NCBI GenBank assembly: GCA_009778325.1
Contig: WRJZ01000039.1
Coordinates: forward strand, 1 to 56,189
DNA: 56,189 nt
Direction: 5' to 3'
Source of the DNA: Candidatus Endomicrobium neocapritermitis
GTDB taxonomy: Bacteria > Elusimicrobiota > Endomicrobiia > Endomicrobiales > Endomicrobiaceae
In this document: positions 26,571 through 31,110 of the stretch, piece by piece
Position numbering within the stretch: the stretch's first letter is position 1
How the letters are laid out: each line of letters starts with the position of its first letter
Translations under genes and position numbers: made by a program
Notes under the pieces: generated by a model
The model's input: only the letters and a program-made list of their open reading frames with translations
The model's database searches: none
What the model was told of the DNA's origin: nothing

Positions 26571-26599
26571 TTGTCGAGTATTCCTAAAATTGATATAAT
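26571..26599 (+). promoter_or_regulatory. miaB promoter, probably giving a leaderless mRNA
   Basis: TTGTCG (26571-26576), 17 bases, then TATAAT (26594-26599). Expected transcription start is about 26605-26607, and the miaB ATG begins at 26606. No ribosome-binding sequence lies upstream of that ATG. Confidence 0.65.
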
Positions 26600-26605
26600 T
26601 TTTGA

Positions 26606-27904
26606 ATGAATTATTTTATAGAGACCATCGGCTGCCAGATGAACATCTGTGATTCCGATATGATTTCAGAAACGCTTTTGTCATACGGCGCAGCAAGGGT
26701 AAATTCTTTAGCTGACGCGGACATTGTCGTACTAAACACCTGTTCCGTACGCGCGCAGGCAGAACAAAAAGCTTTTTCGTTTCTCGGGCGCGCCGAAGAT
26801 TTAAAAAAAGAAAAGAATTCCAAACTTAAAATAGTTGTAATAGGCTGTATGGCTGAAAGGCTGGGAATTAAAATAAAAAAACGTTTTAACACGGTTGATT
26901 TAATTGTCGGCGCAAAAGATATAGATAATGCAGCGAAACTTATATTAAAACTGCAGGGTGAAGATAAAAACAGCATATCCGTTAACTCCGCTCTTAAAAC
27001 TCCAAACTCCAAACTCAAATCTGACATTGTCAGATTTGTAACAATAATGCGCGGATGCGATAATTACTGTTCCTACTGCGTAGTGCCTTTTGTGAGAGGA
27101 CAAGAAGCAAGTCTTCCGGCTGAACAAATTTACAATGAATGCAAAGACATATCAGAAAACGGCGCAAAAGAAATAATGCTGCTGGGGCAAAATGTAAACT
27201 CTTATCAGTTTGAAGATACAAATTTTGCCGCTTTGATAAAAAAAGTAGCGTCAATAGATTCAATAAAAAGAATAAGATTTATGACAAACCATCCCAAAGA
27301 TTTAAATGATGATTTGATAAATATTATGGTGTCCGAACAGAAAGTATGCGCCCATATACATCTTCCGCTGCAGTCGGCTTCAAATAATATTTTAAAAGCC
27401 ATGAACAGAAAATATACATACGAACATTATCTAGGGCTGGTTGAAAAACTCAGAAGCAAGATTGCCGATATAAATATAACGACTGATATTATTGTCGGGT
27501 TTCCAGGCGAAACCGAAGAAGATTTTCAGGCTTCTTTAAAAGCCGTCAAAGATATCCGTTTTGGCGGGCTTTATGTTTTCCGTTATTCACCGAGACCGCA
27601 GACAAAAGCCGCTGAAATGAAAGATAATATTCCGCTCGAAGAAAAGAAAAGGCGCCATGCGGTAATACTTGAAGAATCAAATAAAATATCAATTGAAATA
27701 GTGGCTCAAAGCGTCGGAACGGTTCAGGAAGTATTAACCGAAAAATATGAAAACGGAGTGCTGGAAGCAAGAACAAGAAGCGGAAGAAAAGTTTTCGTTA
27801 AAGGCGGCAAAGAGCATCTCGGGAAAAATATTAATGTTTTGATAAAAGAAGCAAAAATAAACTCATTATTCGGCGATATCATTAATGAAAAAACAAATAA
27901 ATAA
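26606..27904 (+). CDS. miaB: tRNA-2-methylthio-N6-dimethylallyladenosine synthase
   Basis: The 432-residue radical-SAM methylthiotransferase modifies i6A37 of tRNA. N-terminal cluster Cys residues are in ETIGCQMN, LNTCSVRAQAE and VIGCMAERL. The radical-SAM triad is in GCDNYCSYCVVPFVRG (about residues 150-165), and a C-terminal TRAM domain is present. Its substrate nucleoside is made by MiaA, encoded at the end of the same gene run. At about residues 129-139 the sequence ALKTPNSKLKS is encoded by AACTCCAAACTCCAAACTCA, which looks like an arm of the genome's word repeats. The next gene starts 20 bases before this one ends. Confidence 0.95.
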   Translation: MNYFIETIGCQMNICDSDMISETLLSYGAARVNSLADADIVVLNTCSVRAQAEQKAFSFLGRAEDLKKEKNSKLKIVVIGCMAERLGIKIKKRFNTVDLIVGAKDIDNAAKLILKLQGEDKNSISVNSALKTPNSKLKSDIVRFVTIMRGCDNYCSYCVVPFVRGQEASLPAEQIYNECKDISENGAKEIMLLGQNVNSYQFEDTNFAALIKKVASIDSIKRIRFMTNHPKDLNDDLINIMVSEQKVCAHIHLPLQSASNNILKAMNRKYTYEHYLGLVEKLRSKIADINITTDIIVGFPGETEEDFQASLKAVKDIRFGGLYVFRYSPRPQTKAAEMKDNIPLEEKKRRHAVILEESNKISIEIVAQSVGTVQEVLTEKYENGVLEARTRSGRKVFVKGGKEHLGKNINVLIKEAKINSLFGDIINEKTNK

Positions 27905-28475
27905 ACTAAGATTATCCATTTTAATCGCGGCCCTGTTTGCGGTTACGGGCGGATTCATTTACACGCTCAAATATATCGGCATTTTTGACGGCATGCCCTA
28001 TAAGGAAGAAGTTGAAAACGCTTCTGCTTTATTGTACGGAATGGATCCTCTTCTCATTGAAGCCGTAATGAAAAGAGAATCTAATCTCAATCCTAATGCC
28101 GTTTCAAGCAAAGGAGCCGTCGGTCTTATGCAGATAATGCCAGCAACTGCCCGGGAAATAGCATACGTATTAGAAATTCAGGATTACAGCGACGATATGC
28201 TTAAAGATCCTCAGATAAATATATTGTTCGGGGCATATTATCTGACAAGGCTTTTGGCTTATTATAACAGCAATCTGATTCTTACTCTTGCCGCATATAA
28301 CGCCGGAATGGGAAACGTTGATAAATGGATTGAAAAAGATCCTAAAGTAGCTAAAAAAATATCCGGAATTCCTTTTAGAGAAACGCAAAGACACGTAAGG
28401 TCAATTATAATAACTTATAATTTTTATAAAGGAGCAGAACAATTAAAACGTCTTCTGAGAATAAAGAGAAATTAA
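27885..28475 (+). CDS. Lytic transglycosylase, SLT domain
   Basis: The 196-residue protein has an N-terminal membrane/signal segment (LRLSILIAALFAVTGGFIYT, residues about 9-28). A Slt70-like catalytic domain follows: the catalytic Glu in VMKRESNLNPNAVSSKGAVG (about residue 64), then LMQIMPATA, and AAYNAGMGNVDKW near residue 145. It cleaves peptidoglycan to 1,6-anhydro products in the periplasm. It overlaps miaB by 20 bases and probably mutS by 34. Confidence 0.9.
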   Translation: MKKQINKLRLSILIAALFAVTGGFIYTLKYIGIFDGMPYKEEVENASALLYGMDPLLIEAVMKRESNLNPNAVSSKGAVGLMQIMPATAREIAYVLEIQDYSDDMLKDPQINILFGAYYLTRLLAYYNSNLILTLAAYNAGMGNVDKWIEKDPKVAKKISGIPFRETQRHVRSIIITYNFYKGAEQLKRLLRIKRN

Positions 28476-31018
28476 CTCCCTTAATGCAGCAGTATTGGGA
28501 GATAAAAGCCAAATATTCGGGAATGATACTATTTTTCCGTCTGGGAGATTTTTATGAAATGTTCGGCGATGACTCGGTAAAAGCGGCTCCGGCAATGGAT
28601 GTAGTTTTAACGCAGCGCGCCGGCACGCCTATGTGCGGAGTTCCTTATCATTCCGTAAATACTTATATAAGAAAGCTGATAAGCAAAGGCTTTAAAGTAG
28701 CGCTGTGCGAGCAGCTTGAAGAATCCGGAGTCGGCAAAGGAATAGTAAAAAGAGGCGTAACCCGCATAATAACGCCCGGCACGGTTCTTGAAGACACTCT
28801 CCTTGAATCAAAAGAAAATAATTACCTTATGTCGGTTTATTTTGACGAAAATACTTTATCGGGCGCTTTTGCGGCCGCGGATATATCCACCGGGGAGTTC
28901 TTTACTTCGGAATGTACGCCAAAATCGCTCGAGGCCGAAATATCAAAATATAATCCCGGCGAAATCGTAATATCTTCAAAAAATCTTTTAAACCCGCATA
29001 TTGCGGCGCATATCGAAAAGCTTAAAGTTCCGGTATCCGACGTTGACGAAAATTTTTTTGATTTTTCGGCAGGGGCAGAAAGAATACAAAAATTCTTAGG
29101 CAAGAATGCGGTTAAAGCTTTCGGATTAAATAAAAAAGAAATTGTTTCCGTATGTGGAGCTGTTTTGAATTATATTAATGAAACACAGCCCCAGGCTTCC
29201 GGAATTTTTTCCGCAATAAATTACATAAGAAACACGGATTATATGTATCTTGACGGCGTAGCAATAAGAAATCTTGAGCTTCTTTATTCTATGTCTACGG
29301 GCAAAACTGAAAATTCGCTTTTATCCGTAATGGATTCCACAAAAACGCCGATGGGCGCAAGGGCAATAAGGCAGTGGCTCATAAAGCCTCTTGTTGATAT
29401 AGCAAAAATTGAAGAAAGGCAGAAAAACGTAAACTTTTTCATCGAAGAAGGAATTATCCGCAAAGATATAAGAGAAAAACTCAGGTGCGTATCGGACATA
29501 GAAAGAATAACTGCGCGCATATCTTCGGCTTCGGCAAATCCTAGGGATATATCTTCGCTTAAAGAATCTTTATCGGTTATAAATGAAATAGCCGCCGTAT
29601 TGAAGGATAATGAAAGCTTAAACTCTCTCAAACCTAATAATGAAGAAATAATCAAAAAAATATCCGTCACAATAGCGGACGAACCGCCGATTTCTCTAAA
29701 AGACGGCAATGTCATAAAAAATGGAGTCAGCGGCGAACTTGACGAACTTCGTAAACTTTCAACCGACGCCAAAACGTATATATCAAATCTTGAAGCCTCA
29801 GAGCGCAAAGCCAGCGGCATAAATAATTTAAAAATAGGATACACTTCGGTTTTCGGATACTATATAGAAATTTCAAAAGCAAACATACCTTTAGCGCCGA
29901 AACATTACATAAGAAAGCAGACGCTTACAAACTGCGAAAGATACATAACCGAAGAGTTAAAAACGCTTGAAGCAAAAATACTTTCGGCGCAGGAAAAAAC
30001 ATTAAGGCTCGAAAGTGAACTTTTTAATATTTTAAGACAAGAGCTTTCCGATTTTACCGTAGATATTTTTAAAGTTTCGCAAACTGTCGCCGAAATCGAC
30101 ATTTTTTGCGGATTTGCGCAAAATGCTTTGGATTATAACTATGTATGCCCTAAAATAAACAGCGGGCTTGACCTGCATATTCTGGAAGGACGCCATCCTG
30201 TTGTCGAAAGAATTTTGAAATCAGGAGAATTTGTAGCCAATGACGCGGATTTTAAATGCGACAGCTCAAGGATTATGATTTTAACCGGTCCCAACATGTC
30301 CGGTAAATCCACATATTTAAGGCAAAATGCTTTGATTGCGGTTATGGCGCAGACCGGATCGTTTGTTCCGGCTGCGGCGGCTGAGATAGGCGTTATTGAC
30401 AGAATTTTTACCAGAATCGGCGCGGGCGACAATCTTGCCGGGGGCGAGTCAACTTTTATGGTTGAAATGACCGAAACCGCGAATATTTTGAACCAATATA
30501 CCGACAGAAGCCTTATAATTTTGGATGAAGTCGGAAGAGGAACGTCAACTTATGACGGAATGTCTATTGCCTGGGCGATTATAGAATATTTTGCCGATGA
30601 AAACCGCGCGGCAAATGCCGGCGCGAAAGTATTGTTCGCGACGCATTATTTTGAACTCACCGAACTGTCTGAAAAGCTTAAAGGAACGGTAAATTTCAGC
30701 GTTGACGTTAAAGAGTGGAACGGAGACGTAGTTTTTCTTCACAAGATAAAGGAAGGCAGCGCCGACAGATCTTACGGAATACACGTGGCAAAAATAGCAG
30801 GAATTCCTCATAAAGTTATTGAAAGGGCAAACGCCGTTCTAAGGGAGCTGGAAAAGAATCAGGTTGAACCCGCTAAATTAAAAGAAAATCCGCAAACAGA
30901 GTTTTTCTGTACAACTGAGCCTCAAATTTTGATAGAATTAAGCAAGTTGGAAATTGAAAATATCAGTCCAATGGAAGCATTTAAAATTCTTAGCGAATGG
31001 AAAGAGAAATACAAGTAA
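28442..31018 (+). CDS. mutS: DNA mismatch repair protein MutS
   Basis: The product is an ATPase that binds mismatches. Motifs are the mismatch-binding FFRLGDFYEMFGDD, Walker A GPNMSGKSTYLRQN (about residue 615), and DEVGRGTSTYDGMSIAWAI. I place the start at ATT 28442 rather than ATG 28484. AAAGGAG (28428-28434) lies 7 bases before the ATT, and the added residues (KTSSENKEKLTPL) match the usual MutS N-terminus (TPMMQQYL-type); ATG 28484 lacks a Shine-Dalgarno. This gives 858 residues; from ATG 28484 it is 844. mutL lies downstream after a PilZ gene. Confidence 0.93.
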   Translation: MKTSSENKEKLTPLMQQYWEIKAKYSGMILFFRLGDFYEMFGDDSVKAAPAMDVVLTQRAGTPMCGVPYHSVNTYIRKLISKGFKVALCEQLEESGVGKGIVKRGVTRIITPGTVLEDTLLESKENNYLMSVYFDENTLSGAFAAADISTGEFFTSECTPKSLEAEISKYNPGEIVISSKNLLNPHIAAHIEKLKVPVSDVDENFFDFSAGAERIQKFLGKNAVKAFGLNKKEIVSVCGAVLNYINETQPQASGIFSAINYIRNTDYMYLDGVAIRNLELLYSMSTGKTENSLLSVMDSTKTPMGARAIRQWLIKPLVDIAKIEERQKNVNFFIEEGIIRKDIREKLRCVSDIERITARISSASANPRDISSLKESLSVINEIAAVLKDNESLNSLKPNNEEIIKKISVTIADEPPISLKDGNVIKNGVSGELDELRKLSTDAKTYISNLEASERKASGINNLKIGYTSVFGYYIEISKANIPLAPKHYIRKQTLTNCERYITEELKTLEAKILSAQEKTLRLESELFNILRQELSDFTVDIFKVSQTVAEIDIFCGFAQNALDYNYVCPKINSGLDLHILEGRHPVVERILKSGEFVANDADFKCDSSRIMILTGPNMSGKSTYLRQNALIAVMAQTGSFVPAAAAEIGVIDRIFTRIGAGDNLAGGESTFMVEMTETANILNQYTDRSLIILDEVGRGTSTYDGMSIAWAIIEYFADENRAANAGAKVLFATHYFELTELSEKLKGTVNFSVDVKEWNGDVVFLHKIKEGSADRSYGIHVAKIAGIPHKVIERANAVLRELEKNQVEPAKLKENPQTEFFCTTEPQILIELSKLEIENISPMEAFKILSEWKEKYK

Positions 31019-31110
31019 CGGCAGAAGTTTAGAAGTTTGGAAGCTTAGCAAAGACAAAAGCAGTTGCTAAACTTCTAAGCTCTCCAAGCCCTCTAAACTT
31101 CACTGGAGAA
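31019..31110. repeat. Word-arm element, type I-like core (mutS-pilZ gap)
   Basis: Words AGAAGTTT / AGAAGTTT / GGAAGCTT form the left arm. The right arm is AAACTTCTAAGCTCTCCAAG and onward. The short centre GCAAAGACAAAAGCAGTTGC retains the CAAAGACAAAA motif. Confidence 0.75.

Follow-up and report, generated by a model that had tools for sequence, protein, structure and literature searches.

The window, meaning the whole stretch of 56,189 nucleotides analysed here, was taken from contig WRJZ01000039.1 of Candidatus Endomicrobium neocapritermitis. On its forward strand a miaB-like gene, a lytic transglycosylase gene and mutS follow one another with overlaps of 20 and 34 nt, and the three likely form one operon. 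The features of the region are as follows.

26606–27904, + strand: miaB-like gene, assigned from its translation, first gene of the likely miaB-SLT-mutS operon
27885–28475, + strand: lytic transglycosylase gene (SLT), overlapping the start of mutS by 34 nt
28427–28429, + strand: in-frame stop codon TAA, which bounds the possible mutS starts
28428–28434, + strand: putative Shine-Dalgarno sequence (SD) of mutS, AAAGGAG, duplex energy -7.2 kcal/mol; a GGAG-type core at spacer 7 is found in most relatives with an AUU, AUA or AUC (AUH) start
28442–28444, + strand: predicted mutS start codon ATT (AUU); ATT, ATA or ATC stands here in about 30 family genomes, 27 of them without an NTG alternative
28442–31018, + strand: mutS, 858 amino acids from the AUU, fMet-KTSSENKEKLTPLMQQY..., with the Pfam domain MutS_I and homology to E. 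coli MutS
28484–28486, + strand: ATG of the internal TPLM methionine, the start taken by a gene finder limited to ATG, GTG and TTG; the Met is invariant in 32 of 32 genomes and the SD is weak

The encoded protein is a homologue of E. coli MutS (phmmer E = 4e-189), containing the mismatch-recognition domain and showing full-length homology. A promoter-like sequence, TTGTCG-17-TATAAT with a TG before the -10 element, ends 6 bases 5' of the miaB ATG at 26606 (window 26571–26610), and the miaB-SLT-mutS mRNA may thus begin without a leader at miaB. Between mutS and a PilZ-like gene (window 31020–31105) the DNA contains an imperfect inverted repeat, agaagtttagaagtttggaagcttagcaa ... ttgctaaacttctaagctctcc.

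The mutS frame is shut by the TAA at 28427–28429, four codons before the ATT, and contains no ATG, GTG or TTG between this stop and ATG 28484. The codons from 28442 are ATT AAA ACG TCT TCT GAG AAT AAA GAG AAA TTA ACT CCC TTA, followed by ATG 28484. An earlier note on this DNA had placed the start at the ATT, with AAAGGAG 7 bases upstream and a 34-base overlap with the transglycosylase gene; the AAAGGAG was located at 28428–28434, separated from the ATT by the 7 nt spacer CAGAACA, and the overlap follows from the transglycosylase frame at 27885–28475. The same note had described ATG 28484 as lacking an SD; a weak one is present, with an energy of about -2.7 kcal/mol compared with -7.2 for ATT 28442. 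The 14 codons had also been described as a MutS-like N-terminus. This description applies to T-P-L-(M), which corresponds to HTPMMQQY in E. coli MutS, but not to KTSSENKEK, which is a variable linker. ATG 28484 encodes the internal methionine of TPLM-QQY, and the MutS_I match (140.9 bits) begins at the threonine of TPLM (28475), upstream of that ATG. The codon ACG 28448 was rejected as a start, having a spacer of 13 and no conservation, and a hairpin at the ribosome binding site was rejected because the fold was not unusual (z = -1.66).

Start codons were compared across termite-gut Endomicrobium and Endomicrobiellum genomes and their wider kin. A mutS match was obtained in 64 of 77 family genomes, and the 5' end could be read in 63 of these and in 7 further genomes of the same order. 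In 27 of the 63 no usable NTG precedes TPLM, while ATT, ATA or ATC lies behind a strong SD of -5.6 kcal/mol or lower, mostly at spacer 7; 26 of these were called by rule, and the other is G026, whose GGAG also stands at spacer 7. An ATG that immediately precedes TPLM in G004 has no SD. In three others (G051, G054, G104) the sole NTG codons are distant from TPLM on the upstream side, a single base behind the SD, or ahead of it. The mutS start is ambiguous in G017 and G052, and 31 of the 63 have ATG. The orthologue comparison proposed in the earlier note was thus positive, clearly in 27 genomes and in 30 in all, spread over 8 of 14 genera. An ATG precedes TPLM in all 7 genomes of the same order and in the class and phylum genomes examined.

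The T-P-L before the methionine is invariant in all 32 AUH genomes (the 30 together with the two ambiguous ones), as is the methionine itself, which is also kept in genomes with a separate mutS ATG further upstream. The codons vary freely, with ACT, ACG, ACA and ACC for threonine, CCC, CCT, CCA and CCG for proline, and TTA, CTG, TTG and CTT for leucine, and in most overlapping genomes T-P-L sits after the transglycosylase stop. Invariant residues with synonymous codon variation indicate constraint on the protein, so that translation must begin upstream of ATG 28484. The AUH codon with its SD is the only conserved start-like element upstream of TPLM, and on these comparisons mutS very probably starts at AUU 28442.

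On the MutS tree, which was a quick search, the AUH rows lie in one clade (SH-aLRT 99) except for G012, whose long branch makes its position unsure. Among 29 AUH rows the start is ATT in 21, ATA in 6 and ATC in 2, with at least 4 changes, all within these three codons. At least 8 changes between AUG and AUH are required, which means that there were several returns to AUG or repeated origins of AUH. With ATG in use in relatives such as G014, the AUH codon is not essential. In this single-contig relative (L007) the mutS ATG has no SD and no transglycosylase match was found upstream. The mutS frames of three genomes contain internal stops, with one TGA in G049 (L027), one TGA and two TAA in G052 (L031) and one TAA in G025 (L030), which suggests that mismatch repair is decaying in certain reduced genomes.

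The overlap with the transglycosylase gene offers a possible origin for this start. In the sister families (G060, G062) mutS begins within the transglycosylase gene at an ATGG, which the transglycosylase frame reads as the tryptophan of TY-x-W. In the AUH clade this tryptophan is replaced and the mutS start lies 7 codons further downstream; other family members have a shorter transglycosylase and a mutS with ATG. At the new position an ATG, GTG or TTG followed by A would create TGA in the transglycosylase frame in the 14 overlapping AUH genomes. In all 14 the ATT is followed by A, giving TTA (Leu) in the transglycosylase, and is preceded by a codon of the form xxA. TTA accounts for 24% of leucine codons in this genome, and the corresponding column holds different codons in the sister families.

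The reading that we favour, with a probability of roughly 0.85, is that mutS here and in most of its Endomicrobiaceae clade starts at AUU, AUA or AUC behind a strong SD 7 nt upstream. In this reading the start would have arisen from the overlap, and its weakness would cap MutS and should make it sensitive to IF3. The ancestral ATGG would have been lost in the AUH clade and the start moved 7 codons downstream, to a position where an NTG codon would terminate the overlapping gene and AUU, read there as leucine, would be workable. The strong SD would hold the start in place while the initiator fMet-tRNA mispairs at the third base. Such a weak start would limit MutS synthesis and keep the repair protein scarce, and should be IF3-sensitive.

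A start at AUU could also be a mere by-product of the overlap, forbidden from becoming NTG by the transglycosylase frame in 14 of 14 overlapping genomes and of no regulatory benefit. This alternative is a serious one, to which we give a little less than an even chance. It is opposed by genomes in which the constraint is absent: in G049, G053 and G054 the transglycosylase ends about 100 nt before the mutS start and ATT or ATC is kept, AUH and SD are kept where it ends 100–220 nt upstream, and AUH is kept in G033, G050, G103 and G108, in which no transglycosylase match was found in the stretch examined. G048 has ATAA at the mutS start, though an ATGA there would still stop the transglycosylase. 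The overlap is thus insufficient as the entire reason for AUH, and accounts for its origin better than for its persistence; since AUH is kept without it, the weak start seems to be tolerated or selected. The SDs of AUG-start relatives are also weaker (median -3.3 kcal/mol compared with -7.1 for AUH; p = 7e-11, kinship ignored), although part of this contrast follows from the AUH-calling rule, which itself required a strong SD. Weaker SDs at AUG starts fit selection for a moderate rate of mutS initiation.

A strong SD combined with an AUH start is a known design for low, IF3-sensitive initiation, and a non-NTG codon before a conserved N-terminus is the usual situation for infC, the gene of IF3. 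In the family, infC (which lies outside the 314-gene sample described below) has no NTG start either, showing GTC, ATA or GTA before the conserved RxNQ start. The infC of this genome (L122, G000:C22:26469–26678, minus strand) has no ATG, GTG or TTG before its conserved N-terminus GAGGGGGATGTCGTCGAAAAC... and probably starts at GTC. Since NTG is likewise absent from the start of infC here, IF3 control of mutS, and with it IF3 feedback, is plausible; weak third-position pairs are rejected by IF3 (PMC10158994). A stronger proposal is that a lineage-wide, IF3-controlled brake on MutS in Endomicrobiaceae would make mismatch repair limiting and couple it to the level of IF3, having arisen from the overlapping-gene trap and then been maintained by selection once the overlap had disappeared. 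We regard this as doubtful; if it were true, mutation rate would vary with the state of translation.

Initiation at ATG 28484 itself, by ribosomes reinitiating after the transglycosylase stop (28473–28475) 8 nt upstream, would give a MutS without TPL. The two sites are close and coupled genes are known to be translated by reinitiation (PMC2268962), but such a start would leave unexplained the invariance of T-P-L over freely varying codons in 32 genomes. The SD at this ATG is weak, its methionine is conserved as a residue even below an upstream ATG, and genomes with a distant transglycosylase, or with none found, still have the AUH codon and its SD, making this reading improbable. Still less probable is a -1 frameshift within the overlap that would fuse the transglycosylase to MutS and require no mutS start. 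In overlapping genomes no stop interrupts the mutS frame across the last part of the transglycosylase gene, but here it is stopped just four codons before the ATT, and genomes that lack the overlap show the same pattern. Inspection of the join by eye revealed no slippery heptamer, and a membrane-anchored MutS is implausible. An error at 28442–28444 concealing an ATG, which the earlier note had named as a possible objection and which a multi-contig assembly might allow, is refuted by the ATT in four other genomes of the same genus and in many others.

The specificity of the mutS start was examined in a genome sample of 400 kb plus the window (456 kb, 314 genes). Only in mutS is the first NTG, itself without a strong SD, preceded by an AUH codon that has one, and a wider screen of near-cognate codons again returned mutS alone. 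This restriction to mutS, and the recurrence of AUH with an SD at the same position in about 30 relatives, speak against a chance pattern. Lineage-wide permissive starts were rejected, as no second case occurred in these 314 genes. A special initiator tRNA was also rejected, all Met-type tRNAs having the anticodon CAT among the roughly three quarters of the tRNA matches that were inspected, those in the retrieved loci and in the window. G014 and G026 contain the 16S anti-SD, which was not found in the incomplete assembly of this genome.

To our knowledge few bacterial genes start with AUU, AUA or AUC, and these are mostly dosage-sensitive regulators. The infC gene starts at AUU in E. coli and AUA in S. 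aureus, and resembles mutS here in its non-NTG start, strong SD, third-position mismatch and expected IF3 sensitivity; infC, however, is autoregulated by IF3, while mutS, as a repair gene, would only be acted on passively. The statement in the earlier note that AUU starts are known mainly from infC was too narrow. AUU is also the start of E. coli pcnB (Binns and Masters 2002, as cited in PMC13009471), likewise a chromosomal gene that is translationally limited by its start, although the protein and phylum differ. In S. aureus, cvfC1 (AUU), ccpN (AUA) and citZ (AUA) have conserved non-canonical starts identified by ribosome profiling, and expression from AUU and AUA starts amounts to about 10% of that from AUG (PMC13009471). 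Like mutS, these combine conserved non-canonical starts with strong SDs; they differ in gene and phylum, in SDs that are reported to be extended, and in having been shown by ribosome profiling. Streptomyces sigR has a GTC start that is conserved throughout the genus and repressed by IF3, and its replacement by a canonical codon disturbs dosage (PMC5472188). It shares a conserved non-canonical start with mutS, while its codon is GTC, its product a stress sigma factor and its dosage effect experimentally shown. The mutS gene combines the features of a conserved AUH start, with no usable NTG, a strong SD (mostly at spacer 7) and a codon kept across species. The open-access literature searched contained no description of an AUU start for mutS.

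The kind of start is already known from infC, pcnB, sigR and ccpN, and it is the proposed origin within overlapping genes that makes the mutS case instructive. It would show how an overlap between genes can drive a start codon away from NTG. Gene finders restricted to ATG, GTG and TTG would clip the N-terminus of MutS in Endomicrobiaceae. A repair gene with an AUH start in about 30 species would tie the fidelity of initiation to the mutation rate.
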